Virus record (IMG/VR): IMGVR_UViG_3300042923_000650
Coordinates: 1-23,924 of that record
Source: a virus
Length of the DNA: 23,924 nt
Strand: one strand, 5' to 3'
The notes below the pieces were generated by a model. That model was not told the DNA's origin. It ran no database searches and was given only the letters and a program-made list of their open reading frames with translations. Positions 7,243 through 20,220 of this stretch are shown here, piece by piece (the stretch's first letter is position 1; every line of letters starts with the position of its first letter). Both the position numbers and the translations under genes were made by a program.

Positions 7243-7250
7243 GGTGGCTC

Positions 7251-9734
7251 CTAGAGGATGTCGGCCAGCGAAGGGCCTGTCGTGTTGGTTACGGAGGGGT
7301 AGACCGCCAGGGGGCCGCTGTCTGCTCGCTCGGTTTCGGCGTCCTGCTCCTCCTCGGTCACGCGGTCGACGGCGCGGGCACGACGGAGGCCGTCGATGAC
7401 CCACTTGCCGCGGGTCTTGCGCTTCACGAGGCCCCGCTCGCCGAGGGCCTGGTAGAAGGCGCGCGAGCTCCAGCCCAGGAGGTCGCGGTGGTTGTGCTCC
7501 TGCGCGTAGTCCTGGAAGGCGCGGAAGAGGATGGGAGCCTCGACCTGGCCCGCGGGATCGGCCACATACTCGCCGGGGAGGAAGCCCTCCAGCACGTCGG
7601 ACTGTTCGCGGTAGTCCTTGGTGGCGTCCCGCACGCTGGCCGGGTCGCCGAGCCCGTTCTCGTACCACTCACGGGAGCCGCGGACGGCCCACGCGACGAT
7701 GCCCGCGCGCTCGGCGAGGAGCTTGGAACCGAGCCGCCCGTCGCGCTCCTCGGGGCGGAAGAACCGCTCGAAGGGGAGCATCTTGACGCGCCGCCACAGG
7801 CCCTCGTCCTGGCCGCGGAAGTTGGGCTTGTTGTTCGTGGCGAGGAGGAGGAGGAAGGTCGGCCGGAACTCGAAGAACTCCTTGCGCATGAAGCGCGCGG
7901 CGATGAGGTCGCGGCCCGTGACCCGCTTGAGCACGGCCTCGGCCATACGCTTGCCAGCCTCGCCCTCGGACGCCATGACGAGCCGCGCACCCTTGAGCGC
8001 CGCGAGGTCGTTGGGGATGCCGCCACTCGGCCGCTCCTCGAAGGTCGAGAAGGGCGTCGTGACGGTGAACTCCCGGAAGACCTCGGTGAGTGTGTCGGTG
8101 AGGACGCTCTTGCCGTTCGCGCCCGTGCCCCACAGCACGCCGAAGCACTGGTCGATGGTGTGGCCCGTGATGCCGTACCCGATGAGCCGACGGATGTAGT
8201 CGGGCATGCCGGGCTCCTTGGGGAAGACCTCGGAGAGGAAGCTCTCCCACCTCGGGGCCTTGGCCGTCGGCTCGTAGTCGAAGTCGAGGCGGCGGGTCAG
8301 GAGGAGGGCCGGGTCGTGCGGGCGGAGCTCGCCCGTGCGGAGGTCGATGACGCCGTTGAGCGCGGCCATGAGGTCCGGGTGCTTGTCGAAGTCGTCGAAG
8401 ACGGCGGGGACGCGCTCCACGGCCTGGAGCTCGCGGATCATGGAGTCGAGGCCGCGGGTCGTCTGCGCGTGCGAGGCGTACTTCTGATAGCGCCCGGCGC
8501 GTGCCTTGAGCTTGGCCCGCTCCTCGTCGGAGCCCGTGGCCTCCTGAGCCGCGACGCTCGCGTCGATGGCGAGGCTCTTGATGCGGTCGGCGACGGCCTG
8601 CGCGTAGGTGCGGACACCCTGGCGCTCGTCGACCCGCCACACGCCGCCGTCGAGGAGGAGGAAGCCCACCTCGGGCGTGTAGCGGACGCCAGAGCCCCGG
8701 CCCTCGATGTAGTCGCGGAGGTAGCGAGCTCCGCCGAGGTCGGTGAGGCTGTAGACGTTCTCGTCCCACGCCAGGAGCGACGCCTCGCGGCCCTTGACGG
8801 CCTTGGCCTGGGTGATGGCCCGGATGACCTCGCGGGAGAAGTCAGCGCCCGCCTGAGCGCGCCAGTCGGTGAGGTCGAGGCCGTCGGCCATGTTGAGCAC
8901 GCGGACGCGGACGCCGCGCGAGCTCAGCCCGTCGGCGACGCGCGCCGAGAAGGTGCGGCCTGCCGGGTCGCCGTCGCCCGCGACCACGGCCTCGCGGTCG
9001 CCGATCCACTCGGCGAGCTCGTCGATGATGGCCGGGTTGCCCGCGTGCGACGCCCCGGCGATGCCGATGGTGTCGTAGCCGAGGGCCGCGCCGGTCAGGG
9101 CGTCACCCGGCCCCTCACAGACGAGCACCTCGGGCCAGCCCGACGAGCCGTGGAAGTAGCCGGTCTTGGCCCACGCGCCGCCCTCGGGGCTCTTGGGGCC
9201 GAGCCAGCGGACGGCGGCGTCCTTGTCGAGGGCGCGGGCCTGGAAGTTGCGGGCGACGCCGTCGGGGGTGCGGAAGGGCACCACGAGACGGGGGCCGCCG
9301 CCGATGTCGTCGACATAGCCGAGGCCGAGGTCGACGGCGTGGAGCGGCTCGACGCCGAAGCGCTCCTCGGCGTAGGCGCGAGCTCGCGGAGCGTCGGCCA
9401 CGTCGGCCTGTAGCGCGTCGGCGTAGCCGTCGAGGCGCATGGCGAGCGAGGCGATGGCCGCGGGCGTGGCAGGGAGGGCCGAGGTCGCGCGGCGCTTGGG
9501 CGCGTCGGCACCCGCCTCCAGCTTGGCGAGGTCGGCGAGCGTGATGCCGAGCTCGCCGACGACGGCGGGCGTCGAGCACCCGGCGCGGCACTTGAGGAGC
9601 ACCTTGCCCGAGTCGCCGAGCGCGACGCGGAGGGACGCGTGAGAGTCGGAGTGGGCCGGGCATGTGGCGACGTAGCCGTCGGCGGTGGGCTCGACACCCG
9701 CGAGGAGGTCGAGGAGGTCGGTGAGGGTGCGCAT
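7251..9734 (-). CDS. DNA primase-helicase fusion (TOPRIM plus SF3 helicase)
   Basis: 827 aa. The N-terminus has a CHC2-like zinc-binding site (C25, H28, C49, C53). A TOPRIM fold follows, with the CEGPGDAL motif (E207) and GDGDPAG (D254, D256) for Mg2+ binding. The second half is a D5/P4-type superfamily 3 helicase: Walker A GTGANGKS (536-543), Walker B ARLVMASEGE (about 583-592) and sensor LLATNNKP (N634, N635), with the arginine-rich LWRRVKMLPFERFF after it. A C-terminal winged-helix-like segment (SRAFYQALGERGLVKRKTRG) may bind DNA. It primes and unwinds DNA at the phage fork with the polymerase at 4714-6579. The start at 9734 (MRTLTDLLDLL) is chosen for AGGAG 6 nt upstream; the longer frame runs through the family 2 element. 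Its 3' end carries another family 2 element (7298-7329). Confidence 0.93.
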   Translation of the reverse strand: MRTLTDLLDLLAGVEPTADGYVATCPAHSDSHASLRVALGDSGKVLLKCRAGCSTPAVVGELGITLADLAKLEAGADAPKRRATSALPATPAAIASLAMRLDGYADALQADVADAPRARAYAEERFGVEPLHAVDLGLGYVDDIGGGPRLVVPFRTPDGVARNFQARALDKDAAVRWLGPKSPEGGAWAKTGYFHGSSGWPEVLVCEGPGDALTGAALGYDTIGIAGASHAGNPAIIDELAEWIGDREAVVAGDGDPAGRTFSARVADGLSSRGVRVRVLNMADGLDLTDWRAQAGADFSREVIRAITQAKAVKGREASLLAWDENVYSLTDLGGARYLRDYIEGRGSGVRYTPEVGFLLLDGGVWRVDERQGVRTYAQAVADRIKSLAIDASVAAQEATGSDEERAKLKARAGRYQKYASHAQTTRGLDSMIRELQAVERVPAVFDDFDKHPDLMAALNGVIDLRTGELRPHDPALLLTRRLDFDYEPTAKAPRWESFLSEVFPKEPGMPDYIRRLIGYGITGHTIDQCFGVLWGTGANGKSVLTDTLTEVFREFTVTTPFSTFEERPSGGIPNDLAALKGARLVMASEGEAGKRMAEAVLKRVTGRDLIAARFMRKEFFEFRPTFLLLLATNNKPNFRGQDEGLWRRVKMLPFERFFRPEERDGRLGSKLLAERAGIVAWAVRGSREWYENGLGDPASVRDATKDYREQSDVLEGFLPGEYVADPAGQVEAPILFRAFQDYAQEHNHRDLLGWSSRAFYQALGERGLVKRKTRGKWVIDGLRRARAVDRVTEEEQDAETERADSGPLAVYPSVTNTTGPSLADIL
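7298..7329 (-). promoter_or_regulatory. Family 2 element, copy F (within coding sequence)
   Basis: Minus strand GCGAGCAG (7322-7329), 13-bp spacer, GGCGGTCT (7301-7308), ACC. One base in each half of the first box differs from the consensus GTGAGCAC; the spacing is identical. It lies inside the 3' end of the primase-helicase gene, 58 bp upstream of the ATG at 7242. Confidence 0.5.
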
Positions 9735-9760
9735 GGGGCTCCTAGGTAGGTGGTTGCACA

Positions 9761-9792
9761 GGAAGACCGCCACGCGAGCGGGAGGTGCTCAC
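9761..9792 (-). promoter_or_regulatory. Family 2 element, copy A
   Basis: Minus strand GTGAGCAC (9785-9792), 13-bp spacer, GGCGGTCT (9764-9771), TCC. It lies 29 bp upstream of the primase-helicase ATG. It overlaps a terminator hairpin (9764-9802), so the same bases may both end the preceding unit and start this one. Confidence 0.6.
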
Positions 9793-9802
9793 GTGGCGGT
9801 CT
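9764..9802 (-). terminator. Hairpin terminator overlapping family 2 element A
   Basis: Perfect 11-bp inverted repeat AGACCGCCACG / CGTGGCGGTCT, 17-nt loop, 7 bp after the stop of the resolvase-like gene. The 3' arm is the GGCGGTCT box itself; no long T-run follows. Confidence 0.6.
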
Positions 9803-9808
9803 AGGGGG

Positions 9809-10150
9809 TCACTCGCGGAGGCGTGCGGCGACGCGGGCGAAGTCGGCGAGCTCCATCACGGCGAGGCCCTGAGCGGTGCCCTTGCCGCGGCGCTTGATGA
9901 AGGCGACCGGGATGGCGTCGGCGTTTACACGCGGGGCCTGCGCCTTGGCCCCCGCGATGCCCTGGTTGATGGCGTCGGCGAGGTTGGCGACGTTCTTGGC
10001 CTGCCCGACGAAGGGCTCGATGCCGTGGATGTCGCCCGTGTCAAGCTGGCCCGTCTGCGCGACGCGGCGCGCCGGGATGCCGTGCGCGACGAGGTAGTCG
10101 CGGATGGCCGACTCCCACGCGGTGCCCTTGCGCTTGTTCGCCGAGCTCAC
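9809..10150 (-). CDS. Holliday-junction-resolvase-like PD-(D/E)xK nuclease
   Basis: 113 aa beginning MSSANKRKGTAWESAIRDYL. E13, D40 (in DTGDIHG) and the Q50-A-K52 motif (FVGQAKN) reproduce the E...D...(E/Q)-x-K order of Hjc-like and Mrr-like nucleases, followed by a basic segment (FIKRRGKGTAQG) and a terminal helix. The glutamine in place of the usual second glutamate also occurs in Mrr-type enzymes, so it need not be inactive. The expected role is processing branched DNA during replication and packaging. The start is the GTG at 10150, overlapping the upstream TGA by 4 bp (GTGA). A GTGTAAACG site lies inside (codons Arg-Val-Asn-Ala). It ends a five-gene coupled string whose last member it is. 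Confidence 0.75.
   Translation of the reverse strand: MSSANKRKGTAWESAIRDYLVAHGIPARRVAQTGQLDTGDIHGIEPFVGQAKNVANLADAINQGIAGAKAQAPRVNADAIPVAFIKRRGKGTAQGLAVMELADFARVAARLRE
9922..9930 (-). promoter_or_regulatory. GTGTAAACG site inside resolvase-like gene
   Basis: Exact repeat on the coding strand. No promoter boxes at the right spacing. Candidate intragenic stoperator. Confidence 0.5.
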
Positions 10151-10347
10151 TCGGGCACCTCCTCGCCCTTGGTTGCCGCGATGATGTCGGCGAGGGCTCG
10201 GGCGTATGCCTCGGCGAGGCACTTGAGCGCGAGCTCGGCGCGCCCGTGGGGGTAGCTGACGGAGACGGTCGCCTCAGGCGGCTCGTCGGCGTCGGCCCAG
10301 TGGCGGCGGCCCTCGACGGTGCGCTCTACGACGACGCGGGCGGTCAT
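10147..10347 (-). CDS. Hypothetical protein, 66 aa
   Basis: Starts MTARVVVERTVEGRRHWADA at ATG 10347, overlapping the upstream stop by ATGA, and ends in a GTGA overlap with the resolvase-like gene. A beta-rich N-terminal half (ATVSVSYPHGRAE) is followed by one helix (LALKCLAEAYARALADIIAA). No family recognised. Coupled translation with the nuclease suggests the two work in the same process or are needed in equal amounts. Confidence 0.7.
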   Translation of the reverse strand: MTARVVVERTVEGRRHWADADEPPEATVSVSYPHGRAELALKCLAEAYARALADIIAATKGEEVPE

Positions 10348-10487
10348 AGCTCGCCCCATCCGCTCGCCTCGGCGCACGTGCCATCGTGGCCGTCGTTGGC
10401 GGCACAGATGCCGAGCCCGCACGCGCGCCACGCGGGGGCGTCGGAGAGGCGGAGCTCGGTGAGCTCGCCGACGGTGCACACGGTCAC
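10344..10487 (-). CDS. Small Cys-containing protein, 47 aa
   Basis: GTG start at 10487 overlaps the TGA of the glutaredoxin-like gene (GTGA), and its own TGA overlaps the next ATG (ATGA), which is the main support for this reading. It contains four cysteines (positions 4, 23, 28 and 38) and a C-x4-C-x9-C spacing compatible with metal binding. No family recognised. Confidence 0.6.
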   Translation of the reverse strand: MTVCTVGELTELRLSDAPAWRACGLGICAANDGHDGTCAEASGWGEL

Positions 10488-10738
10488 GCGAGCGCCGCCA
10501 GGAGGTCCGGGCGGTAGCCGCTCCACACCTGAGGCGTGCCGCCCGCGGGTGCGGCCTCGACGATGGGCGCGGACAGGAGGCCCATGGCCTTGAACTCGAC
10601 GAGGGTGTCGGCCTGCTCGGGCTCGGAGAGGTCGACGACGACGTAGGGCACGCCGAGCTCGGTGAGCTTGCGCTTGGTCGCGGTGCACTGGGGGCACGCG
10701 GGGAGGGTGTAAACGGTCGTGGTGGGTACGGGGTTCAT
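10484..10738 (-). CDS. NrdH/glutaredoxin-like thiol-redox protein, 84 aa
   Basis: Begins MNPVPTTTVYTLPACPQCTA: a beta strand leading to the redox motif C15-P-Q-C18, then KRKLTELGVPYVVVDLSE (the second strand of a glutaredoxin fold), a conserved cis-Pro segment LLSAPIVEA, and a terminal GYRPDLLAAL helix. This is the NrdH-redoxin pattern; NrdH proteins reduce class Ib ribonucleotide reductase, but no reductase gene is in the window, so it may serve the host enzyme. GAAAGA upstream serves as weak ribosome site. The codons Val-Tyr-Thr coincide with a GTGTAAACG site on the opposite strand. Confidence 0.85.
   Translation of the reverse strand: MNPVPTTTVYTLPACPQCTATKRKLTELGVPYVVVDLSEPEQADTLVEFKAMGLLSAPIVEAAPAGGTPQVWSGYRPDLLAALA
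10707..10715 (+). promoter_or_regulatory. GTGTAAACG site near 5' end of glutaredoxin-like gene
   Basis: Exact repeat, 24 bp inside the start codon, followed by G rather than C. Position close to the 5' end would let a bound protein stall polymerase early. Confidence 0.55.
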
Positions 10739-10763
10739 GAGGGTCTTTCGGTAGAGACGGGAA

Positions 10764-10794
10764 GGCCCCCGCTCGCGCGTGGCGAACGGGGGCC
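10764..10794 (-). terminator. Hairpin terminator between membrane protein and glutaredoxin-like genes
   Basis: 8-bp stem GGCCCCCG / CGGGGGCC with a 15-nt loop; the minus-strand 3' side continues TTCCC. Only 25 bp separate it from the next ATG, with no promoter visible, so read-through is expected and this is probably an attenuating terminator. Confidence 0.65.
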
Positions 10795-10812
10795 GGGGTA
10801 GTGCCGGGGGTG

Positions 10813-11070
10813 CTATTCGTTGGGGAACATCACCCGCCGCACCGATGCCGCGATGGCGTTGGTGCGGAGACGCCGGATCACCTCCTGAGTCGTGGCGGCC
10901 CAGAAGGCCGCGCCGATGGTGAGGCTGATGAGGATGAGCCCCGTGGCGAGTGCCGCGGGAGTCACGAGGAGGCCGACGGGGATGACGACGGCCAGCGAGA
11001 AGAGGCCCCACAGGATGGCCGCCGCGGTCCACGCGGCGGCCACCTGCTGGCTCAGGGTCGGAGCGCTCAC
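10813..11070 (-). CDS. Small two-pass membrane protein, 85 aa
   Basis: GTG start at 11070 overlaps the stop of the gp3-like gene (GTGA). Two hydrophobic segments are evident (about residues 10-35 and 39-58: AAAILWGLFSLAVVIPVGLL and ALATGLILISLTIGAAFWAA) followed by a basic tail (EVIRRLRTNAIAASVRRVMF). The topology resembles small phage membrane proteins, and the tail is likely cytoplasmic. No family recognised. Translational coupling to the gp3-like gene is seen. Confidence 0.7.
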   Translation of the reverse strand: MSAPTLSQQVAAAWTAAAILWGLFSLAVVIPVGLLVTPAALATGLILISLTIGAAFWAATTQEVIRRLRTNAIAASVRRVMFPNE

Positions 11071-11786
11071 GCCGGGGCGATGTCGGTGATGGTCGCCTTG
11101 ATGAAGCTGACCGTCTGACCGGCGCGCGGGCCGTTCTTGGCGACGAAGCTCACCGGTTCGAGCGCGAGCTTGGCCTTGGCCTTGCCCTCCTCGCTGTCGC
11201 TGATGGCGTCCGCGAGCGTCGACTCGGTGCCGTTGTAGGCCATGTCGGAGACGAGGCTCCAGCCACCCGAGCGGAAGCGGAAGAGGCCGAGCTCCGGGTC
11301 GTCCGCGAGGCGGAAGAAGAGGGTCGTCTCGGGCTCCGGTCCGGTGCCGTCCTTGGCCTTGGCCTTGCGCTCGGCGAAGGTGAGCGACGCGTCGGGGTCG
11401 GCCTCGTCGGTCGGGTTGCCCGAGTCGTCGAGCTTCCACTCGCCGTCGGTCGCGTAGATGAGCTTGCCGTTGCGCGACCACAGCACCATGCGCTGACGGA
11501 GGGCCGATGCCTTCTCGATGATGATGTCGACCGAGGCGGCCTTGGTGAAGACCTCGATGTTGTTCTCGGACTCGGTTTCGATGGTCTGCGGCTGGTCACC
11601 GCCGTAGAGCTCGTGGATGCGGTCGGCGACCTCCGGGTCGCCCGTCGTCACCCGCCACTCCTCGACCGTCGCCGGTCGGTTGTTGATGACGTAGCCCGCG
11701 TGGAAGCGGCCGACGAGGTCGTCGGCGAAGCTCGAACGCTGTTTCGGCTGGTTCTCGGGGTCGGTTCCGAAGACCTTGAGTGCCAT
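11067..11786 (-). CDS. phiC31 gp3-like protein (recombination directionality factor family)
   Basis: 239 aa. The N-terminal block FGTDPENQPKQRSSFADDLV, then GRFHAGYVINNRP and EWRVTTGDPEVADRIHELYG, and the later FFRLADDPELGLFRFRSGGW, match the gp3-like family that includes the phiC31/phiBT1 recombination directionality factor. That family redirects a large serine integrase toward excision. It is also widespread in phages and actinobacteria without an obvious integrase, where it may act in replication or recombination. No integrase is visible here, so role is open. AGGACAGG upstream of the ATG at 11786 is the ribosome site. It heads a unit preceded by family 2 element B. Confidence 0.65.
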   Translation of the reverse strand: MALKVFGTDPENQPKQRSSFADDLVGRFHAGYVINNRPATVEEWRVTTGDPEVADRIHELYGGDQPQTIETESENNIEVFTKAASVDIIIEKASALRQRMVLWSRNGKLIYATDGEWKLDDSGNPTDEADPDASLTFAERKAKAKDGTGPEPETTLFFRLADDPELGLFRFRSGGWSLVSDMAYNGTESTLADAISDSEEGKAKAKLALEPVSFVAKNGPRAGQTVSFIKATITDIAPA

Positions 11787-11843
11787 GTGTGCCTGTCCTG
11801 TCTGTCTTGTCCTGGCGCGGCGCGCCGTTGTGGGGGACAGAGA

Positions 11844-11875
11844 GGTAGACCGCCAACGCGGGCTTGTGTGCTCAC
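11844..11875 (-). promoter_or_regulatory. Family 2 element, copy B
   Basis: Minus strand GTGAGCAC (11868-11875), 13-bp spacer, GGCGGTCT (11847-11854), ACC. It lies 60 bp upstream of the ATG at 11786, between terminator 11896-11931 and the gp3-like gene. No inverted repeat here, so the conserved boxes are not merely a hairpin. Confidence 0.65.
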
Positions 11876-11895
11876 CCGAGTTGTGCTAATGCACG

Positions 11896-11931
11896 AAGGC
11901 CCCTACCGGGGAGTAGTCCGGTAGGGGCCTT
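11896..11931 (-). terminator. Strong intrinsic terminator after lipoprotein gene
   Basis: Perfect 14-bp stem AAGGCCCCTACCGG / CCGGTAGGGGCCTT with an 8-nt loop, just past the stop at 11941. The 3' arm ends GGCCTTCG. Confidence 0.9.
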
Positions 11932-11940
11932 GAGGGGGCG

Positions 11941-12441
11941 TTAGCCGCCGAGGCGGGGAACGTCGATGCTGAGCGGGGCGTCGCTCTGGATGTAGTCGAG
12001 GCTCGTCTCGACCATGGTGCCGTCGGAGGTGAAGAAGAAGATGCCCGGGTCGCCCTGGCCGTAGCTCCCGTCGTCCTTGGCCGACTCGGTCACGAAGCGC
12101 TCGCCCCCGACGGAGGAGTTGCCGGGGACGAAGATGACCTCGGACTCGGGCGCGATCTGCGACGCCGACGAGCTCACCTTGCCCTTGGTCACGTAGTAGC
12201 CGACGATCTGGCCGAAGTTCATGAGGTACAGGTAGCGGACGGCCTCCGGGTCGTCCTCGCGGGCGCGCTTCTCCTTGAGGTTCGTGAGCTCCAGCGAGGC
12301 CGAGCGGTCGTACTCGGTCGCCAGGGCCTGGCGCTCCTCGTAGTTCTTGCGCTCCGACGAGGGGACGCCGCACCCGGTCAGGGCGACGGCGGCGACCGCG
12401 ACGGCGACGAAGGCGGCGGTGATCTTGGTGGCGTTCTTCAT
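11941..12441 (-). CDS. Phage lipoprotein, 166 aa
   Basis: The N-terminus MKNATKITAAFVAVAVAAVA followed by LTGCG is a signal peptide with a lipobox (L-T-G-C24), so the mature protein should be diacylated and anchored outside the membrane. After a helical stalk (SSERKNYEERQALATEYDRS), the mature part is beta-rich (GQIVGYYVTKGKV; EVIFVPGNSS). AAGGAC lies upstream of the ATG at 12441. It is the last gene of a nine-gene unit and lies directly after another membrane-anchored protein (14-bp gap). Phage lipoproteins often block superinfection, but no exclusion family is recognised here. Confidence 0.85.
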   Translation of the reverse strand: MKNATKITAAFVAVAVAAVALTGCGVPSSERKNYEERQALATEYDRSASLELTNLKEKRAREDDPEAVRYLYLMNFGQIVGYYVTKGKVSSSASQIAPESEVIFVPGNSSVGGERFVTESAKDDGSYGQGDPGIFFFTSDGTMVETSLDYIQSDAPLSIDVPRLGG

Positions 12442-12454
12442 GGTGAGGGTGTCC

Positions 12455-12865
12455 TTACTTGCAGTCAGTCGAGGGGTTGAGGTTGTCGATCTGGTAGGGG
12501 AGGTCGACGGCCCGCCACGAGTCCGACGTGACCTTGCGGGCCTCGGCGTTGTACTCGCCGACGAGGCTGATGCAGATGTTGACGGTGCCGAGGTAGGTGT
12601 CGGAGGCGGTGCGGTCGTCGGGGTTCTCCGCCTTGGCCGCCGAGGCGATGGCGACCTTGCGGTCGGTCGCCTCGATGTCGGCGTAGAGCTCCTCGAAGAG
12701 CTCTTGCTTGGCGACACGGTTGTCGACGCCGTTGTCCCGGATGATGGTGTCGCCCGCGCCCTTGATGTCGGACGTGGCGACCTTCACGCCCCACATGACG
12801 GAGGGGGTGCCGATGACGGCGACGCCTGCGACGATGCACAGGGCGACGAGTGAGCCTTTTCTCAT
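12455..12865 (-). CDS. Membrane-anchored extracytoplasmic protein, 136 aa
   Basis: Positively charged start (MRKGS) then a hydrophobic segment (residues about 5-28: LVALCIVAGVAVIGTPSVMW), predicting an N-in, C-out anchor or uncleaved signal. The external part has helix-rich regions (ELFEELYADIEATDRKVAIA) and an N-terminal-to-C-terminal pair of cysteines (C98 in NICISLVGEYNAEARK and C135 near the end). The segment EYNAEARK and the long helix are weakly LemA-like. GAAAGG precedes the ATG at 12865. It is paired with the lipoprotein gene, and both are probably envelope proteins. Function unknown. Confidence 0.75.
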   Translation of the reverse strand: MRKGSLVALCIVAGVAVIGTPSVMWGVKVATSDIKGAGDTIIRDNGVDNRVAKQELFEELYADIEATDRKVAIASAAKAENPDDRTASDTYLGTVNICISLVGEYNAEARKVTSDSWRAVDLPYQIDNLNPSTDCK

Positions 12866-12884
12866 GGGTGGGTGCCTTTCAGGG

Positions 12885-13202: not shown

Positions 13203-13211
13203 GAGGTGTCC

Positions 13212-14169: not shown

Positions 14170-14444
14170 GCGTTGCCCCCGATGCGCGCCTGGATGCCCC
14201 ACACGCGCTCGATGTCGACCTCGGACCTAACGAAGGCGTCGTACTGGTAAAGGCCGTTGTCGCGGCGCTCCCAGCGGTCGCCATCGCCGTCGATGAGAGC
14301 GACGGGCGGGGCGGGCGGAGCGGGCGGAGCGGGCGGGTCGAGCTCGTCGGCGAGGCGGCGGAGCTCGGCGGCGATGGCGGCCTTGGCCGACGCGACGACG
14401 CTGGACACGTCGAGCTCGACCGGGAGGTTGACGGTGGCGGTCAT
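14166..14444 (-). CDS. Small D-x-D-x-W...GLY protein with Pro-Ala linker, 92 aa
   Basis: An N-terminal helical part (ATVNLPVELDVSSVVASAKA, AIAAELRRLADELD) is joined by a short PPAPPAPPAPP linker to IDGDGDRWERRDNGLYQYD. The linker is encoded by a G/C-rich 9-bp repeat at about 14304-14337. The same module is in the proteins at 12885-13202 and 14002-14169. ATGA overlaps on both sides. Function unknown. Confidence 0.72.
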   Translation of the reverse strand: MTATVNLPVELDVSSVVASAKAAIAAELRRLADELDPPAPPAPPAPPVALIDGDGDRWERRDNGLYQYDAFVRSEVDIERVWGIQARIGGNA

Positions 14445-14857
14445 GCGAACGGCCCTGCCTTCTGCGCCTTGGGCGCGGTCTTTTTGATCCACGGGAGTCG
14501 GAGGGCGGAGTATCCGCGGGCGCGCGACGCCTCGGCGTAGCCCCGCTCGACCGCTCCCGCGTCGGCGAGGGCGTCGAGCACCTTGAAGAGGCGGGTCGAG
14601 CTCGTCGTCACGTCGATGTAGAGGTGAGAGTGCCCCGGGGTCGTGCTCGGGATGAGGCACGCCGGGACATCGAGGTCGATGAGGAGCTTGTGCTCGTCGG
14701 CGAAGGTCGACGAGTTGCTCGTGAGCTCGGAGGTCACGATGTTCGCCTCGGAGGAGCCGACGGCGACCTCGGGGACGAGGGTGGGGCTCGTGTAGTCGCC
14801 GCCCGTGAGAGGCGAGCGGCGATGCACTAGCGTGCTGAGGATCGTGTAAACGCTCAC
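14441..14857 (-). CDS. Hypothetical protein with possible AEP-like core, 138 aa
   Basis: GTG start at 14857 overlaps the upstream TGA (GTGA). The protein begins MSVYTILSTLVHRRSPLTGG; codons Val-Tyr-Thr overlap a GTGTAAACG site near the start. The core KLLIDLDVPACLIPSTTPGH followed by SHLYIDV resembles the D-x-D and S-x-H motifs of archaeo-eukaryotic primases. It is too short to be a whole primase-polymerase. The C-terminus (GYAEASRARGYSALRLPWIKK) looks like a winged-helix end. Similar short proteins recur in actinophages with no known role. The primase resemblance is inference and could be coincidental. Confidence 0.65.
   Translation of the reverse strand: MSVYTILSTLVHRRSPLTGGDYTSPTLVPEVAVGSSEANIVTSELTSNSSTFADEHKLLIDLDVPACLIPSTTPGHSHLYIDVTTSSTRLFKVLDALADAGAVERGYAEASRARGYSALRLPWIKKTAPKAQKAGPFA
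14844..14852 (+). promoter_or_regulatory. GTGTAAACG site at the start of gene 14441-14857
   Basis: Exact repeat 5 bp inside the GTG start, overlapping codons Ser-Val-Tyr-Thr. It lies in the middle of an operon, not at a promoter, so it probably acts as an internal block. Confidence 0.55.
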
Positions 14858-15150
14858 TCGGCCACCTCCGCGGGGATGTTGTGGCCGCGCGGTGCCGTGT
14901 CGACCTCGGCGACGAGCGCGGTGGCCTTGGTGAGCGTGCGGAGGATGGCCGTGCGCCGGGCGCGGGCGTGGACCCACTGGCCCGGGAAGCGCTCAGGGCG
15001 GTCGAGGACGGCCTCGGCCTTGGAGAGGTTGCGCTCCAGACGGCGCACGCGGCGCGTGGCCTCCTGACGGGCGCGACGGTAGGCGGCTCGGTTGGTGAAC
15101 GCGAGGAGGGCGGGAGCCTCGCTCAGCGTGGGGGTTGTCGGTTCGTTCAT
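14854..15150 (-). CDS. Basic helical protein, 98 aa
   Basis: Starts MNEPTTPTLSEAPALLAFTN. The middle is strongly basic and helical (RAAYRRARQEATRRVRRLER; ARARRTAILRTLTKATALVA), consistent with nucleic-acid binding. The ATG at 15150 has no Shine-Dalgarno; the GGCGGTCT box of family 2 element C ends exactly 8 nt upstream, so the mRNA may be leaderless. It heads the nine-gene unit that includes the RNA ligase and lipoprotein. No family recognised. Confidence 0.75.
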   Translation of the reverse strand: MNEPTTPTLSEAPALLAFTNRAAYRRARQEATRRVRRLERNLSKAEAVLDRPERFPGQWVHARARRTAILRTLTKATALVAEVDTAPRGHNIPAEVAE

Positions 15151-15155
15151 GACAG

Positions 15156-15187
15156 GGAAGACCGCCAGGGTGGCGGGGCCTGCTCAC
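15156..15187 (-). promoter_or_regulatory. Family 2 element, copy C, leaderless arrangement
   Basis: Minus strand GTGAGCAG (15180-15187), 13-bp spacer, GGCGGTCT (15159-15166), then 8 nt to the ATG at 15150. Identical geometry to copy E. If the second box is a -10-like element, the transcript starts at or near the ATG. Confidence 0.65.
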
Positions 15188-15200
15188 GGGAAACGAAAAA

Positions 15201-15223
15201 GCCCCCGGCGAGTGGCCGGGGGC
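15201..15223 (-). terminator. Intrinsic terminator with T-run
   Basis: 9-bp stem GCCCCCGGC / GCCGGGGGC with a 5-nt loop, followed on the minus strand by TTTTTCG, the clearest U-tract in the window. It ends the single-gene unit at 15240-15497. Confidence 0.9.
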
Positions 15224-15239
15224 GGGGGTGGGAGAGGGA

Positions 15240-15497
15240 TCAAAGGCCGAAGAAGGCGGCGCGCTCGTCGTCGCGGCGCATTTCGTCCTGGTGGACCGGG
15301 TTGTACTCGTAGGTCCAGCGGAAGGCGTTGAGGTAGGCGCGCTCAGCGGCGGCCTCCATCTCGGCGTCGGCGTCGTAGTAGGCGTCGAGGGCGGCGGCCA
15401 TTTCGTCGACCGAGAGGGCGCGGGGGTAGTGGGCGATGACCTCGCGGTAGTCGCGGATGATCTGGAGGCGGTCGGCGGTGGTGCGGGGGTTCGTCAT
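15240..15497 (-). CDS. Hypothetical acidic helical protein, 85 aa
   Basis: Starts MTNPRTTADRLQIIRDYREV. It is predicted mostly helical with acidic and aromatic residues (ALDAYYDADAEMEAAAERAY, FRWTYEYNPVHQDE). The ATG at 15497 lies exactly 7 nt after the TACGGT box of a family 1 promoter, with no Shine-Dalgarno, so a leaderless mRNA is predicted. It is closed by the T-run terminator at 15201-15223, making it a single-gene unit under the operator. Its small size and solo regulation are like early phage modulators, but no function is recognised. Confidence 0.8.
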   Translation of the reverse strand: MTNPRTTADRLQIIRDYREVIAHYPRALSVDEMAAALDAYYDADAEMEAAAERAYLNAFRWTYEYNPVHQDEMRRDDERAAFFGL

Positions 15498-15504
15498 GTG
15501 TCTC

Positions 15505-15533
15505 ACCGTACACGCGTTTACACGCTCGCGCAA
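15505..15533 (-). promoter_or_regulatory. Family 1 promoter with embedded operator (copy 3), leaderless
   Basis: Minus strand TTGCGC (15528-15533), 17-bp spacer with GTGTAAACG (core 15516-15523), TACGGT (15505-15510), 7 nt to the ATG at 15497. Nearly identical to the copy at 20221-20249 over about 30 bp. Confidence 0.78.
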
Positions 15534-15544
15534 GTCGACGAGCG

Positions 15545-15647
15545 AGATAGGGCTTGCGCCTATCACCGCCGAGCCGCTAGCTTGTGAGACGTGGGGAGCG
15601 TCTCCCGCGAGGGCCAGTGCTTGGGGAAGCGAAGCCCCGGGAGACGC
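15545..15647. other. Structured non-coding segment with alternative hairpins
   Basis: Between the terminator at 15651-15690 and promoter copy 3 lie a 6-bp hairpin GATAGG/CCTATC (15545-15563) and GCGTCTCCC (15598-15606) paired to GGGAGACGC (15639-15647). A further GAGACG at 15586-15591 can pair with the CGTCTC at 15599-15604 instead, giving mutually exclusive stems. No coding frame with a start signal is evident. It could be a small RNA, a regulatory leader or an operator array. Confidence 0.4.
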
Positions 15648-15650
15648 ACG

Positions 15651-15690
15651 AAGGCCCCGCCTCGACTGGGGAGTCACGAGGCGGGGCCTT
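15651..15690 (-). terminator. Strong terminator at the end of the nuclease operon
   Basis: Perfect 14-bp stem AAGGCCCCGCCTCG / CGAGGCGGGGCCTT, 12-nt loop, directly after the LAGLIDADG gene stop at 15694. The 3' arm ends GGCCTTCG. Confidence 0.9.
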
Positions 15691-15693
15691 CAT

Positions 15694-16131
15694 TCATGCC
15701 GCCGCGGGGAGCGCGACGAGCGAGGGCTTGGCGATGCCCAGCGGGCGGCCGAGGGACGGCCCCGGGATGCTCTTCCGATGCGCCTCCTCGCCGCCCACAC
15801 GCCGACGGAAGGCGTCGATGCCGAGCACCTCGGCGATGCGGCCCGAGCGGCGCGAGCCCATGAAGGGCAGGAGCTCGCGCATGATGGCGGCGGCCCGCTC
15901 GCCCTGGAGCTCGGCGTGCCACATGGGCGACGCTGGGGCGGGGCGGTACTGGAGCCGCACGCGCGTCCCCATGAGGGTCGCCGCACGCCCGACGATGTCG
16001 CGGTCAGTCATGCCGACGCGGATGCGCGGGTACTTGCCACGCTGAGCGTCGAAGACCCCCTCGCCCTCCAGAAGCCCAGCGAGCCACAGGAGGTCGTCAC
16101 GCGTGCCGTGGATGGCAGGAGCGAAGGTCAC
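15694..16131 (-). CDS. LAGLIDADG-type homing endonuclease, 145 aa
   Basis: Residues 15-27, LWLAGLLEGEGVF, form one LAGLIDADG motif with the acidic residue conserved (E in EGEG). The next strand RIRVGMTDRDIV, then MWHAELQGERAAAIMRELLP, fit the fold. One motif means it should work as a homodimer. No intron or intein boundaries are visible, so it is freestanding, as the last gene of a coupled operon. The GTG start at 16131 overlaps the upstream TGA (GTGA). Target site is unknown. The longer frame is Arg/Pro-biased and rejected. Confidence 0.8.
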   Translation of the reverse strand: MTFAPAIHGTRDDLLWLAGLLEGEGVFDAQRGKYPRIRVGMTDRDIVGRAATLMGTRVRLQYRPAPASPMWHAELQGERAAAIMRELLPFMGSRRSGRIAEVLGIDAFRRRVGGEEAHRKSIPGPSLGRPLGIAKPSLVALPAAA

Positions 16132-16140
16132 GCGGTCACC
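16126..16140. repeat. 15-bp direct repeat, copy 1
   Basis: GGTCACGCGGTCACC occurs here and at 16365-16379, flanking the 80-aa gene. On the minus strand the block holds the end of one gene (GTGACCGCGTGA) and the start of the next. Confidence 0.8.
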
Positions 16141-16370
16141 CCCTCGGGGAGCTTGACGAAGCGCTTGAGCGAGTCGTCGATGACCGATGTCTTCTCGTGC
16201 CACCTGCTCGTGTGCGTCTCGACGCGGACGGTCGTGCGCTTCTCGGTGAAGCGCTCGACGACGCCGACGACGAGGTTGGGGCCGTTCCACGAGTTGACCG
16301 CGGCGGCGATGCGGTCGCCGACCTCGACGCGGACGCCGCGGGCGTCGATGACATGGTCGCGGGCGGTCAC
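16128..16370 (-). CDS. Hypothetical beta-rich protein, 80 aa
   Basis: GTG start at 16370 overlaps the upstream stop (GTGA), and its own TGA overlaps the next start. It reads MTARDHVIDARGVRVEVGDR then IAAAVNSWNGPNLVVGVVER; the alternating pattern (GDRIAAAV, LVVGVVERF, TTVRVETH) predicts an SH3-like small beta barrel. Ends with GVTA. No family recognised. Its ends lie in 15-bp repeats, so the gene could have been inserted or lost by recombination at them. Confidence 0.7.
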   Translation of the reverse strand: MTARDHVIDARGVRVEVGDRIAAAVNSWNGPNLVVGVVERFTEKRTTVRVETHTSRWHEKTSVIDDSLKRFVKLPEGVTA

Positions 16371-16379
16371 GCGGTCACC
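16365..16379. repeat. 15-bp direct repeat, copy 2
   Basis: Same 15 bp as 16126-16140, 239 bp away. Recombination between copies would remove the 80-aa gene and restore an intact GTGA junction. Confidence 0.8.
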
Positions 16380-16579
16380 TCCAGGTAGGCGAGCGCCTCG
16401 CCGAGGTCAGCGATGAGCTCGCGGACGACGGCGGGGTCGCGGAGGGCGATGGATTTGTGCCCGTAGGCCCACGGGCTCACGTTGGCCTGTCGCTCGCCGC
16501 TCTGCGTGTGCCCGAGCACGACCTCGACCTTGTAGGGCGGGCTTGCCTGGAGCTTGCGGGTGGTCGCGCGGGCGGTCAT
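16367..16579 (-). CDS. Hypothetical protein, 70 aa
   Basis: Starts MTARATTRKLQASPPYKVEV at ATG 16579 (ATGA overlap with the MazG-like gene). Beta-rich start, then VVRELIADLGEALAYLEVTA. Its end EVTA and start MTAR recur in the neighbouring genes, a reflection of the repeated junction DNA. No family recognised. Confidence 0.7.
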   Translation of the reverse strand: MTARATTRKLQASPPYKVEVVLGHTQSGERQANVSPWAYGHKSIALRDPAVVRELIADLGEALAYLEVTA

Positions 16580-17004
16580 GCCAGCACCTCCTGAGCGCGC
16601 ACGAGCTCCTCCAGCTTGGGCGGCTCGTAGTTCGGACCCTTGAGCACCTTGCCATCCTCGCGCTTGAGCGCCGAGCCGTCCGGGAGGAGCTTGGTCATGT
16701 TCGAGCGGTGCACCTCGTCGAAGAGCGGCGAGAGGTCGAGGCCGTGGGCCAGCCCCGCGCGGATCGTGACGACGAGGATGTCGGTGATGGCGTCGGCGAT
16801 CTTGACGATGTCGCCCGCGTAGGCGGCGTCGCTGTACTCGGCGAGCTCCTCGTGGAGGAGGTCGAAGCTGAGGTCGACCTCCTTCTCGGTCAGGAGCACG
16901 GGCGTCGCCGGGAAGGTGATGCCACATGCCGCGTGGAACTCGCGGACGGCGTCCGATGCGGCGGCCAGGGTGGCGACAGGCTTGGCCTTGGGTGCGGGGC
17001 TCAC
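16576..17004 (-). CDS. MazG-like nucleotide pyrophosphohydrolase, 142 aa
   Basis: Contains HEELAEYSDA (E52, E53, E56) and 15-20 residues later DAITDILVVT (D71, D75): the E-E-x-x-E ... D-x-x-D metal-binding pattern of all-alpha NTP pyrophosphohydrolases (MazG, HisE, dUTPase-2 type). The C-terminus HRSNMTKLLPDG, then KVLKGPNYEPP is typical of phosphoribosyl-ATP-pyrophosphohydrolase-like phage proteins. Expected activity is cleaving a (d)NTP to NMP and pyrophosphate; substrate unknown. GTG start at 17004 overlaps the upstream TGA. Confidence 0.8.
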   Translation of the reverse strand: MSPAPKAKPVATLAAASDAVREFHAACGITFPATPVLLTEKEVDLSFDLLHEELAEYSDAAYAGDIVKIADAITDILVVTIRAGLAHGLDLSPLFDEVHRSNMTKLLPDGSALKREDGKVLKGPNYEPPKLEELVRAQEVLA

Positions 17005-17249
17005 GGGGCCACCTCCTCGACGGGCTCCTCGACGACGGGCTCCTCGGGCAGGGGCTCGGGCTCGATGGGCGTCAGGAGCGCGATGGCCTCGTCGTAGTCG
17101 GCGATGAGGTCGTCGTAGACGCCGAGGGTGAGCTCGTATGCCTCGATCTGACGCGTAGCGGTGGACAGGAGGGCCGAGGTCTTGGAGCGGTCAGTGACCG
17201 CGAGCTCGCGCGCCGCCTTGAGGGCGTTGATGGGGGCGGTGGATGTCAT
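17001..17249 (-). CDS. Hypothetical protein with acidic Pro/Glu tail, 82 aa
   Basis: Helical N-terminus (MTSTAPINALKAARELAVTD; ATRQIEAYELTLGVYDDLIA) then a Pro/Glu/Val repeat tail (EPEPLPEEPVVEEPVEEVAP). ATGA and GTGA overlaps link it to both neighbours. The acidic repeat tail is probably disordered. No family recognised. Confidence 0.7.
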   Translation of the reverse strand: MTSTAPINALKAARELAVTDRSKTSALLSTATRQIEAYELTLGVYDDLIADYDEAIALLTPIEPEPLPEEPVVEEPVEEVAP

Positions 17250-17425
17250 GCGTGTGTCTCCAGAAGGGCGATAGCCGCGTCGAGCTCGGCGAGCTCAGCG
17301 TCGGCCTGGTCGATGAGGGAGGTGTTGGCGGCGCGCGTCGTCAGCGCGTCGCGGTAGGCGGCCACGCCCCGCCGAGCGGCCCGAAGGTGCTCGACGGGGG
17401 TTGGGCCGCGGAAGCCGCGCGTCAT
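17246..17425 (-). CDS. Hypothetical helical protein, 59 aa
   Basis: Reads MTRGFRGPTPVEHLRAARRG, then two helices ending LIDQADAELAELDAAIALLE. ATG at 17425 overlaps the stop of the nuclease gene (ATGA). Its two-helix pattern could be a coiled coil. No family recognised. Confidence 0.68.
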   Translation of the reverse strand: MTRGFRGPTPVEHLRAARRGVAAYRDALTTRAANTSLIDQADAELAELDAAIALLETHA

Positions 17426-18246
17426 GCCGCCCGACGCGCCGGGGTGACGCGCTTGGGGCCGGTCTTGGCGGGGGCGTCGCCGGGACCGCTGGCGAGCGGC
17501 TTGCCGATGATCTGCTTGGAGCCGTTCTTCTCGTAGTCGAAGACGGCGCGGAGGTGCTTGAAGACCTCGAAGACCTCCTCGTCGGCCTTGACCGGGACGA
17601 AGCTCCAGCCCTCGGGGCGCACGTGGAGGACGCGTGCGCCGTCGGTCTTGGGGATGGGCACGCGGGAGCCGTCCGGGCGGAGGATGTGGTCGGCGTAGCG
17701 GTACGCCGAAAGCTGGATACCCACCTCCGCATGGATGCCCGAGCGGGTCGTCTTCCAGTCGAGGACGCACGTCTCGCCGTCGATCTTGGCCCATGCGTCG
17801 AAGGAGCCCGCGTAGCGGTAGGTGTCGCTCCACACGGTCTCCTCCATGAAGAGGAACTCGGGCTGTTTGAGGTCGAGGAACTCCTTGAAGTGGTCGACGA
17901 AGGGCATGAGCTCGGGGTGCACCCGGCCGACGTTCTCGCCCTTGGCGAGGCGCTCGAAGAGGTCATGTGCCTCGGTGCCGATGCGGGCCGCCTCGGCGGT
18001 GTTGCGGCGGGCCGCGCCCTTGAGGTGGTCGATGGCCGCCTGAGGGTCGCGGAGGGTCATCTGCACGACCGTGCCGAGCTCCTCGACGGCGGCGGTGGCG
18101 ACCATCTTGGCCTGCCAGTACTGGAGGAACTCCTTGGGGAGCATGCCGACGACGCTCGTGACGCCGGGCACCTTCTCGCCGCTCTCAGGCTCGACGTAGA
18201 GGCGTGCACCCTCGCGTTTGATGGTGTTGACCTTGGGAAGGGTCAC
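17422..18246 (-). CDS. Cas4/RecB-family PD-(D/E)xK exonuclease, 274 aa
   Basis: Motifs are in the order of RecB-type nucleases: GTEAHDLFERL (H94 region), a YAGSFDAWAKI segment with D150, then VLDWKTTRSG (D163, K165) and QLSAYRYA (Q178, Y182). This matches phage Cas4-like/RecB-like exonucleases used for DNA end processing in recombination and host DNA degradation. No Fe-S cysteine quartet is visible, so it is RecB-like rather than typical Cas4. The start is GTG at 18246, with AAGGAG 8 nt upstream. It leads a seven-gene unit. The upstream DNA holds family 2 element D and a hairpin covering the ribosome site. Confidence 0.85.
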   Translation of the reverse strand: MTLPKVNTIKREGARLYVEPESGEKVPGVTSVVGMLPKEFLQYWQAKMVATAAVEELGTVVQMTLRDPQAAIDHLKGAARRNTAEAARIGTEAHDLFERLAKGENVGRVHPELMPFVDHFKEFLDLKQPEFLFMEETVWSDTYRYAGSFDAWAKIDGETCVLDWKTTRSGIHAEVGIQLSAYRYADHILRPDGSRVPIPKTDGARVLHVRPEGWSFVPVKADEEVFEVFKHLRAVFDYEKNGSKQIIGKPLASGPGDAPAKTGPKRVTPARRAA

Positions 18247-18252
18247 GTTGGA

Positions 18253-18282
18253 CTCCTTGTGTCAGGGGATAGGGACACAAGG
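18253..18282 (-). promoter_or_regulatory. Hairpin sequestering the nuclease ribosome site
   Basis: CCTTGTGTC (18255-18263) and GACACAAGG (18274-18282) form a 9-bp stem with a 10-nt loop. The minus-strand 3' arm includes AAGG of the AAGGAG ribosome site (18253-18258). A transcript starting upstream would fold its ribosome site away, while one starting near 18275 from element D would lack most of the 5' arm. Seen as a perfect inverted repeat; regulatory use is inferred. Confidence 0.55.
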
Positions 18283-18312
18283 AAGACCGCCAGGAGCGGG
18301 GTCGGTGCTCAC
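18281..18312 (-). promoter_or_regulatory. Family 2 element, copy D
   Basis: Minus strand GTGAGCAC (18305-18312), 13-bp spacer, GGCGGTCT (18284-18291), TCC. It lies upstream of the nuclease gene; a start about 7 nt past the second box would fall near 18275. Confidence 0.65.
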
Positions 18313-18357
18313 TGGCGGCGGCGGCGGCGGGGCGAGGGACGAAAGGGACACAAAAAG

Positions 18358-18420
18358 CGTCCCTCTCCCATTCCCTTCTATAGAGCTCTAGCTCTTAGTG
18401 TCAGGAATAGGAGAGGGACG
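18358..18420 (-). terminator. Long nested hairpin terminator
   Basis: CGTCCCTCTCC-C-ATTCC pairs with GGAAT-A-GGAGAGGGACG (16 bp, one mismatch), followed on the minus strand by CTTTTTG. The 29-nt loop contains the nested palindrome AGAGCTAGAGCTCT. It follows the gene ending at 18447. The loop region is clearly more AT-rich than the rest of the window. Confidence 0.82.
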
Positions 18421-18446
18421 AAGTTTCTGCCCTTGCGTCCCTCGGG

Positions 18447-19019
18447 TTACTCGGCGACGCGCTTGGACGCCTCCCGCGCGGCCGTGGCGAGGCGTGTAAA
18501 CGCTCCGGCGAGCTCCGACAAGTCACGCGAGCTCGCGCTCGGTGCCTCGGTCACCCGCGTCACAGCAAGCCGCGCGAGGTTGGCGACTAAGAGCGCGTCG
18601 TCGAAGTCACTGATGGGTGGGCCGCCGCGGAAGAGCCCGAGGGTGCGGGCGTCGCGCTGGCGGCGACGGCTCCCACGCTCGACCGTCGAGCCGGGCTTTA
18701 GGCCGAGGTCGGTGAGCTCCTCCTCGCCGTAGCGGTCGCGGAGGATGGGGCTGATGTGGAAGCGGATGGCCGACTGTAGTGAAGGGCGCTCGCTAGGCGG
18801 CACGTCAGCCTCGTCGAGGGCGGCCTTGACCCACTGGCGATAGTCGTAGGAGCGCCCGAGTAGGTCAGGCGCGCCCTCTCGGTTGTAGAAGTGGCCTCGT
18901 GCCTCGGCGAGGGCCTCGGCGGCCTGCCGCACGCCGCGGGTACGCTCCGGCCCCTCATTTGCAAGGTAGCCGCGCATGCCCTCGCTCGCCCGAGCTCGGA
19001 TGTCGTCGAGTGTGTCCAT
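18447..19019 (-). CDS. Hypothetical protein with upstream palindrome, possible regulator, 190 aa
   Basis: A conserved-looking core is GHFYNREGAPDLLGRSYDYR and RPSLQSAIRFHISPILRDRY, followed by EELTDLGLKPGSTVERGSRR. Similar proteins occur in actinobacterial phages and plasmids with no firm function. The start at ATG 19019 is chosen because AGGA lies 8 nt upstream; ATG 19028 is three codons longer but directly abuts the palindrome. The perfect inverted repeat CCTAACTCACGTTAGG (19029-19044) sits at the gene start, which suggests autoregulation. A GTGTAAACG site (18494) lies inside. Confidence 0.65.
   Translation of the reverse strand: MDTLDDIRARASEGMRGYLANEGPERTRGVRQAAEALAEARGHFYNREGAPDLLGRSYDYRQWVKAALDEADVPPSERPSLQSAIRFHISPILRDRYGEEELTDLGLKPGSTVERGSRRRQRDARTLGLFRGGPPISDFDDALLVANLARLAVTRVTEAPSASSRDLSELAGAFTRLATAAREASKRVAE
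18494..18502 (+). promoter_or_regulatory. GTGTAAACG site near 3' end of gene 18447-19019
   Basis: Exact repeat in plus orientation inside the gene, encoding Phe-Thr-Arg on the other strand. No promoter boxes at fixed spacing. Confidence 0.5.
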
Positions 19020-19028
19020 GTTCGGCAT

Positions 19029-19044
19029 CCTAACTCACGTTAGG
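19029..19044. promoter_or_regulatory. Palindromic operator candidate CCTAAC-N4-GTTAGG
   Basis: Perfect 6-bp arms with a 4-bp centre at the 5' end of gene 18447-19019. Half-sites resemble the CTAACGCG repeats at 4333-4356. Position next to the start codon is typical of an autoregulatory operator. Confidence 0.55.
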
Positions 19045-19118
19045 AGCTATGCGCGATGGCGTATGCGCGTATTGACACGCGAAAGCGCGAGTGATTAGGC
19101 GGCGTTGTAGGAAACCGA

Positions 19119-19154
19119 AAAGGCCCCGCCCTCAGTGAAGAGAGCGGGGCCTTT
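19119..19154 (-). terminator. Intrinsic terminator after dNMP kinase gene
   Basis: Perfect 11-bp stem AAAGGCCCCGC / GCGGGGCCTTT with a 14-nt loop, just past the stop at 19158. It is followed on the minus strand by TCG, in the shared GGCCTTTTCG style. Confidence 0.88.
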
Positions 19155-19157
19155 AGG

Positions 19158-19826
19158 TCAGGAATAGGTGGACATGATGGCGCGGATACCGCGCGCGAGG
19201 TCGTCGAGCGTGCCGTCGTTCACGAGCTCGTGGTCGACCTCATAGCCGTCGAGCGCCGTTTCCGACTCGTGGAGGTCGTCGGTCGGGAGGCCCGGGCGGA
19301 TGACGCGGATGAGGATGCCGCCGTAGCTCTCGATGAGCTCGGCCTCGTTGGGGAAGCGGACATCGGTGAACGCGAGGAGCTCGTGCCAGTGGTGCGACGG
19401 GATGAGGCGCGCCGAGTGATCGTCACGCACGAGGCGCACGAAGTCGAGGGCCTTGCGGATGCGGAGGTCGGCGAGGGCGACCCACGTGGAGCCGCCGACG
19501 AGCTCGTCGAGGCCGTGCTCCTTACCGAGCGTCTCGCGCACGCCCTCGGTGCCGAGCTTCTGGAGGATGCGGCGCACCTCGGGATAGCGCTCCTTGGCGA
19601 GCTCGTAGCCGAGCGCGTCGAGGGCCTCGGTGTAGTGGACGGCGCGCACCCGATAGGGGCCGTCGAGCTCGTGGCCGACGATGGGGTCGGCGGCCTCGGT
19701 GAGGGCGCGGAGGGGCGTGGCGAAGGCGGCGCGCTTGTAGCCGAGCTCGTGGACGAGGGTGTCGGCGGTCGAGTCCTTGCCTGAGCGCTTGATGCCGACG
19801 AGGCCGATGAGAGGGAGTGATGTCAT
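19158..19826 (-). CDS. Deoxynucleoside monophosphate kinase-like protein, 222 aa
   Basis: N-terminal P-loop GIKRSGKDS (residues 11-19) followed by the switch of a nucleotide kinase: GYKRAAFATPLRALTEAAD, then a lid-like basic segment. The central KLGTEGVRETLG and VRFPNEAELIESYGGILIRV segments match phage dNMP kinases (T4 gp1-like), which phosphorylate dNMPs for replication. It has no Shine-Dalgarno; the GGCGGTCT box of family 2 element E ends 8 nt before ATG 19826, so a leaderless transcript is predicted. Single-gene unit between terminators. Confidence 0.82.
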   Translation of the reverse strand: MTSLPLIGLVGIKRSGKDSTADTLVHELGYKRAAFATPLRALTEAADPIVGHELDGPYRVRAVHYTEALDALGYELAKERYPEVRRILQKLGTEGVRETLGKEHGLDELVGGSTWVALADLRIRKALDFVRLVRDDHSARLIPSHHWHELLAFTDVRFPNEAELIESYGGILIRVIRPGLPTDDLHESETALDGYEVDHELVNDGTLDDLARGIRAIMSTYS

Positions 19827-19831
19827 GTGGG

Positions 19832-19863
19832 GGTAGACCGCCAGGAGGAGCCGCCGTGCCCAC
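19832..19863 (-). promoter_or_regulatory. Family 2 element, copy E, leaderless arrangement
   Basis: Minus strand GTGGGCAC (19856-19863), 13-bp spacer, GGCGGTCT (19835-19842), then 8 nt to the ATG at 19826. Same geometry as copy C. Confidence 0.63.
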
Positions 19864-19870
19864 GCCGAAA

Positions 19871-19893
19871 GGCCCCCTCACGAGGAGGGGGCC
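19871..19893 (-). terminator. Intrinsic terminator after Cys-rich gene
   Basis: 9-bp stem GGCCCCCTC / GAGGGGGCC, 5-nt loop, followed on the minus strand by TTTCGG. It ends the unit at 19908-20213 and lies just upstream of element E. Confidence 0.85.
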
Positions 19894-19907
19894 GGGGGAG
19901 GGTGAGC

Positions 19908-20213: not shown

Positions 20214-20220
20214 GTGCCCC

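Follow-up and report, generated by a model that had tools for sequence, protein, structure and literature searches.

A GC-rich two-box element, GTGAGCAC-N13-GGCGGTCT, occurs six times in a 23,924-nucleotide stretch of viral DNA (IMG/VR record IMGVR_UViG_3300042923_000650, positions 1 to 23,924), referred to here as the window; it represents part of the genome of a Zetavirus-like Microbacterium phage. We are highly confident that the six elements are promoters read by the host RNA polymerase when it carries a phage-encoded sigma factor, the protein encoded at 3314-4189. What is established from the sequence is the boxes, their spacing and strand, their conservation, the initiator step that follows them, the family of the sigma factor and the covariation of box 2 with lineage.

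All six copies are on the minus strand, which is the coding strand, with 0-2 mismatches and a spacing of 13 in 6/6 (Table 1). When up to 3 mismatches were allowed, the window gave 7 matches, compared with a mean of 0.59 and a maximum of 3 in 100 dinucleotide shuffles of the window. The seventh match (9774-9802, plus strand, 3 mismatches) appears because the primase site sits within an inverted repeat. This near-perfect 16-bp repeat (9757-9796) surrounds the primase promoter, gives the opposite strand a box 2 of its own and is also found in the related phage Honk. The preliminary description of this DNA had reported six same-strand copies with an invariant 13-bp spacing, and both features hold, far above the shuffles. 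It located all six loci correctly, with spans that are 3 nt too long at the low end, after box 2. Its placement of the copies calls for one small correction: the copy at 7298 lies within the 3' end of the primase gene and faces the gene for a 132-aa protein; box 2 of this copy (7301-7329) begins 58 nt ahead of the end of the primase stop codon.

Conservation in relatives and the predicted start site

The nearest relative of the window is Microbacterium phage Honk (86% identity across 73%), followed by other Zetavirus and cluster EH-type Microbacterium phages, cluster AZ Arthrobacter phages and Curtobacterium phages. The genomes of 11 annotated relatives were read and scanned as loci, and the other comparisons utilized sets of 26 sequences (generic pattern), 21 phages (purine offset) and 20 genomes (distance correlations and the site in the primase 3' end). 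The motif search in related phages that the preliminary description had proposed found cognate sites at orthologous genes, on the coding strand, in about 20 phages and prophages of three host genera (Microbacterium, Arthrobacter and Curtobacterium). They share a common frame in which a constant box 1, GRGCA, is followed after 13 or 14 bases by box 2, GGC-nnn-CT. The letters nnn are near-uniform within one phage and differ from phage to phage; in UtzChips and Caron both GCT and GGT occur. A word-pair screen that used no motif recovered the GAGCA...CGGTCT pair from the window and, in Caron, Lego, Cappuccino, GardenState, SuMoo and phiMiGM15, GRGCA with a second word at a fixed distance. With box 1 as the sole anchor, the second box was GGCGTCCT in Zeta1847 and L025, GGCGCACT in Percival and L026, and GGCGGTAT in L024. 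Under models built for each genome the sites mostly score 27-37 against a best reverse-strand score of 9-15, and the few low-scoring intragenic matches (Cen1621, UtzChips, Caron, Lego, Cappuccino, SuMoo) are likely to be spurious. The generic pattern gave 142 forward and 14 reverse matches, and such sites are also present in prophages of bacterial genomes that carry the sigma factor (L038, L040, L041). Exact-pattern matches in IMG/VR were discarded: 8 contigs, with one match apiece and without a repeated promoter set, look like chance.

In the window and in its relatives the sites precede the genes for the dNMP kinase, Cas4/exonuclease, a mid-cluster protein, the recombination directionality factor and the primase; the dNMP kinase site has orthologous copies in Honk, Cen1621, Zeta1847 and phiMiGM15. 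Complete genomes have more sites after the integrase and near the right end, and the per-genome model scans gave no convincing site upstream of the left-arm structural genes. The site inside the primase 3' end is present in 19/20 genomes, always in the same codon phase and with the letters of each phage's own box 2, so that the C-terminal residues of the primase follow the promoter code of the phage. Conservation of the boxes only as part of a hairpin or of a coding sequence, either of which had been named beforehand as grounds for rejection, is ruled out: an inverted repeat is present at the primase site alone, in the window phage and Honk, the majority of sites lie between genes, and the letters of the intragenic primase site vary by phage.

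A pyrimidine-purine step, almost invariant, comes 7 or 8 nt after box 2, at a distance fixed for each phage. This offset is 8 in the window, Honk, Cen1621, Zeta1847, Lego, Cappuccino and others, and 7 in UtzChips, Caron, Percival, GardenState, SuMoo, phiMiGM15, L023 and L026. The purine frequency at a phage's own offset is 1.00 in 19 of the 21 phages, 0.83 in the window and 0.88 in UtzChips. In leaderless genes the A of the ATG is itself the initiator purine (26 sites, 19 at offset 8 and 7 at offset 7), and genes with a leader usually have a G or an A at the same offset. The arrangement of box 2, 8 nt and then ATG, noted earlier for two genes, is indeed found at 15150 and 19826; both genes have no Shine-Dalgarno sequence, which a transcription start on their ATG, as predicted, would explain. 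The purine at a fixed offset has the appearance of a fixed transcription start, and leaderless mRNA is predicted.

Outside the leaderless class the distance from the box to the start codon varies, while that from the box to the initiator purine is constant. This counts against the idea that the boxes are not promoters but operators or RNA or translation signals, for example start-associated sequences. Such an idea could draw on the start-associated and repeated intergenic motifs in other Microbacterium phages (PMC7302621) and on the primase copy within an inverted repeat, but the repeat occurs at one site only, in two phages, and separate operator-like repeats belong to another set of elements (family 1, described below). 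We consider it extremely unlikely.

The phage sigma factor and the letters of box 2

The protein encoded at 3314-4189, already described as sigma-like and mostly annotated just as a DNA binding protein, has relatives in 98 phage records and an orthologue in all site-bearing phages compared. The Cappuccino orthologue exceeds the TIGR02937 cut-off and those of Pfam for sigma regions 2 and 4, and it matches PHROG 351 (RNA polymerase sigma factor) at 2e-24. When 12 orthologues were combined into a profile, it aligned with WhiG (4e-10) and FliA (1e-7) over regions 2, 3 and 4, and with solved sigmas end to end. For the predicted structure (pLDDT 78, pTM 0.44) the PDB matches listed are sigma factors throughout, with region 4 superposing at 1.4-2 A; the structural scores do not favor WhiG/FliA over sigma-S, sigma-B or sigma-A, while the sequence profile is nearest WhiG/FliA. 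Judged by orthologue profiles, fold matches and homology over regions 2 and 4, the protein is a member of the sigma-70 family. Membership in the ECF group was set aside because region 3 is present and the best profile matches are WhiG/FliA.

Phages of the same host strain, M. foliorum NRRL B-24224, have different nnn letters (Honk CGT, Cen1621 GGC, SuMoo GGT, Percival GCA), so the host alone cannot determine the box 2 code, and a single specificity set by the host is ruled out. Across the 20 genomes the rank correlation with box distance is higher for sigma distance (0.52) than for primase distance (0.43), with partial correlations of 0.36 for sigma given primase and 0.18 for primase. The natural recombinant L025 has a primase 77-79% identical to those of GGT phages and a sigma factor 69% identical to that of Zeta1847 but only 34-38% identical to those of GGT phages. 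GTC, the code of Zeta1847, is found in the boxes of L025, those upstream of and within the primase gene among them. This is strong but indirect evidence, pointing to a box that goes with the sigma lineage and not with the primase lineage. Both results argue against recognition of the boxes by an alternative sigma of the host, such as an ECF sigma, with the phage protein uninvolved: the box 2 letters of one-strain phages differ and are internally uniform, and in L025 the box accompanies the phage sigma. ECF sigmas do typically use two-box GC-rich promoters with a -10 containing GTC, and phages do employ host sigmas; even so, we find this explanation very unlikely.

A second GRGCA stands exactly 10 bp downstream of the first in 13 ordinary sites (L010, L011, L012, L020, L021, L022). 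Six genomes each have one right-end site in which just 9 bases separate GRGCA from box 2, bringing it nearer by one helical turn; GTGTAAAC adjoins 4 of these 6, which are mostly near tRNA or HNH genes. This type of site is possibly a late promoter, and the extra or nearer copies may be compatible with a helper protein that binds box 1. They also favor a model of host sigma-A promoters with a phage activator at box 1 (compare lambda CII, with its spaced direct repeat) and an atypical -10 in box 2, as does the presence of genes for further DNA-binding proteins nearby. Window positions 3200-20400 contain no sigma-70-like site, and box 2 lacks a TAnnnT at the position that the start site would require, so the elements do not have the form of host sigma-A promoters, in which a TTGACA-like -35 is paired with TAnnnT at the -10. 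Moreover, GRGCA occurs just once in most sites, at one rigid distance, and the phage-specific code is in box 2 and not in box 1. We regard the activator model as unlikely.

Several points weigh against promoters read with the phage sigma. Promoter function and sigma binding are predictions from sequence, the initiator offset (7 or 8) was picked for each phage after the data were seen, and the window sigma by itself is under the Pfam thresholds. The co-divergence of sigma and box is partly shared ancestry (partial correlation of 0.36 given primase), and column covariation analysis found no sigma residue that explains the nnn code; this residue-level approach was rejected, the best columns tracking clades. 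The most distant sigma carriers (L032, L033, L035, L036) and also L042 have no convincing site of the GRGCA/GGC-nnn-CT pattern, and the model leaves unexplained both the second GRGCA 10 bp on and the right-end sites with only the nearer copy. In its favor, the -35/-10-type promoter for a non-standard sigma factor suggested in the preliminary description is supported by the strand bias, the fixed pyrimidine-purine step, the leaderless ATGs, the conservation and the presence of a sigma-70-family protein.

Proposed order of transcription and other features

We propose that the phage sigma would bind the two boxes, with GTGAGCAC (core GRGCA) as the -35 element bound by region 4 and GGCGGTCT (frame GGC-nnn-CT) as the -10 element, recognized by regions 2 and 3. 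Transcription would start at the purine 7 or 8 nt past box 2. This start would coincide with the ATG for the dNMP kinase and the basic protein, whose genes are leaderless, and would precede a leader for Cas4, the recombination directionality factor and the primase. Host sigma-A would first transcribe the sigma gene, whose leader contains TAnnnT, together with the other early genes; the phage sigma would then switch on the two-box class as a middle regulon of replication and DNA metabolism genes. TAnnnT is found at about the same aligned place in 9/10 phages (by eye, and weak). In every relative a long leader of conserved length lies ahead of the sigma gene; it contains palindromic stretches in some phages (Honk, UtzChips) and is a possible operator or regulatory RNA. 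We are evenly divided on a broader proposal, in which one sigma lineage would have at least nine -10 codes (GGT, CGT, GGC, GCT, GTC, GCA, TCT, CGA, CCC) within the fixed frame GGC-nnn-CT. Under this proposal almost every promoter of a phage would have the same code, the codes would be orthogonal at least in part and would keep recombining relatives transcriptionally apart, and the variant with the closer box 1 would mark one right-end site per genome.

The four family 1 elements of the window have an ATG 7 nt after the -10 in 3/4 copies and, unlike the two-box class, contain TAnnnT; they look like leaderless host sigma-A promoters with a built-in operator. The word GTGTAAACG has 14 copies in the window, in both orientations, inside and between genes; the copies may be operator half-like, in a layout similar to that of the stoperators of cluster A mycobacteriophages. 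The terminator scan overall was no better than chance, and the stem-loop listed in Table 1 was judged on its one strong stem.

Table 1. Coordinates and strand of the predicted promoters, the genes they face and other features
Feature	Position	Strand	Remarks
dNMP kinase promoter (predicted)	19835..19863	-	1 mismatch; box pair GTGGGCAC-N13-GGCGGTCT
dNMP kinase gene	19158-19826	-	leaderless; predicted start = A of ATG, 19826; initiator and ATG at offset 8
Cas4-like nuclease promoter (predicted)	18284..18312	-	0 mismatches; orthologous sites in relatives
Cas4-like nuclease gene	17422-18246	-	predicted start ~18275-18276, then Shine-Dalgarno leader
98-aa basic protein promoter (predicted)	15159..15187	-	1 mismatch
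98-aa basic protein gene	14854-15150	-	leaderless; predicted start = A of ATG, 15150; initiator and ATG at offset 8
Gp3-like recombination directionality factor promoter (predicted)	11847..11875	-	0 mismatches; orthologous sites in relatives
Recombination directionality factor gene	11067-11786	-	Pfam Gp3-like; predicted start 11838
Primase/helicase promoter (predicted)	9764..9792	-	0 mismatches; inside inverted repeat, also in Honk
Primase/helicase gene	7251-9734	-	predicted start 9755
Intragenic promoter (predicted) in primase 3' end	7301..7329	-	2 mismatches; predicted start 7292
Genes faced by the intragenic promoter	6844-7242; 4714-6567	-	132-aa gene; DNA polymerase I
Phage sigma gene	3314..4189	-	291 aa, sigma-70 family, regions 2, 3, 4; proposed recogniser of the six promoters
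Sigma gene leader	4190..4378	-	TAGGTT at 4330-4335, possible host sigma-A -10 element
Terminator-like stem-loop, T tail	15201..15223	-	9 G-C pairs, TTTTT; directly upstream of the 15159-15187 promoter
Family 1 elements	286-294, 2200-2208, 15515-15523, 20231-20239	-	TTGCG, ~17 bases, TAnnnT; GTGTAAACGCGTGTA in spacer
GTGTAAACG, examples	930-938, 6774-6782, 9922-9930, 10707-10715, 18494-18502, 20985-20993	both among the 14 copies	
Right-end sites with nearer GRGCA	L009 49539, L010 48669, L012 46635, L020 44755, L021 48264, L022 46835		

Significance and comparison with known systems

Several phages that redirect the host polymerase by means of a sigma factor are known, and a dense natural series of sigma-promoter variants is rare. 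The present series comprises about 20 related phages, several of them from one host strain, each with a near-uniform promoter set and its own three-letter -10 code, which makes the joint specificity change of a sigma and its regulon of 6-10 promoters directly testable. If the proposal is true, this phage family illustrates the joint change of a viral regulator and its promoters. The analysis further yields predicted transcription starts, leaderless ones included, for many actinobacteriophage genomes with poor annotation; it suggests a function for a protein with an uninformative label and gives a pointer to GC-rich orthogonal promoters for actinobacteria.

Repeated intergenic motifs upstream of genes have been described for the Microbacterium phage clusters EC, EF, EG and EI, of which EC and EI phages encode a sigma (PMC7302621); their sequences differ from the present element. 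The passages of that paper that were read give no such motif for cluster EH (Percival, Floof) or for Zeta1847; Percival and Zeta1847 carry the two-box element. The papers on cluster AZ (PMC8758107) do not mention a promoter, a motif or a sigma. The flagellar promoter of the group 3 sigmas WhiG/FliA (sigma-28) is TAAA / GCCGATAA (PMC8325347). The present system resembles it in the best profile matches of the phage sigma and in a long -10 that starts in GC, and the Curtobacterium phage -10, GCCGACTC, is similar to GCCGATAA; it differs in having GRGCA in place of TAAA at the -35 and, in the window, GGCGGTCT, of the frame GGC-nnn-CT, at the -10.

In phages phiEco32 and 7-11 a phage-encoded sigma serves middle and late promoters of its own (PMC4331800). 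As in those phages, the sigma proposed here would redirect the host polymerase to dedicated promoters, which are deduced from sequence, and the motifs of the two relatives phiEco32 and 7-11 are similar but shifted, as they are among the present phages. The motif of phiEco32 and 7-11, enterobacterial phages, is AT-rich and consists of one box (tAATGTAtA in phiEco32), whereas the present class, of actinobacteriophages, is GC-rich and two-box, with leaderless genes and a -10 code for each phage. A phage sigma with its own promoters is of a kind already known; for the present sigma lineage, with its GC-rich leaderless promoters and a -10 code that drifts, the part of the literature covered appears to contain no earlier report.

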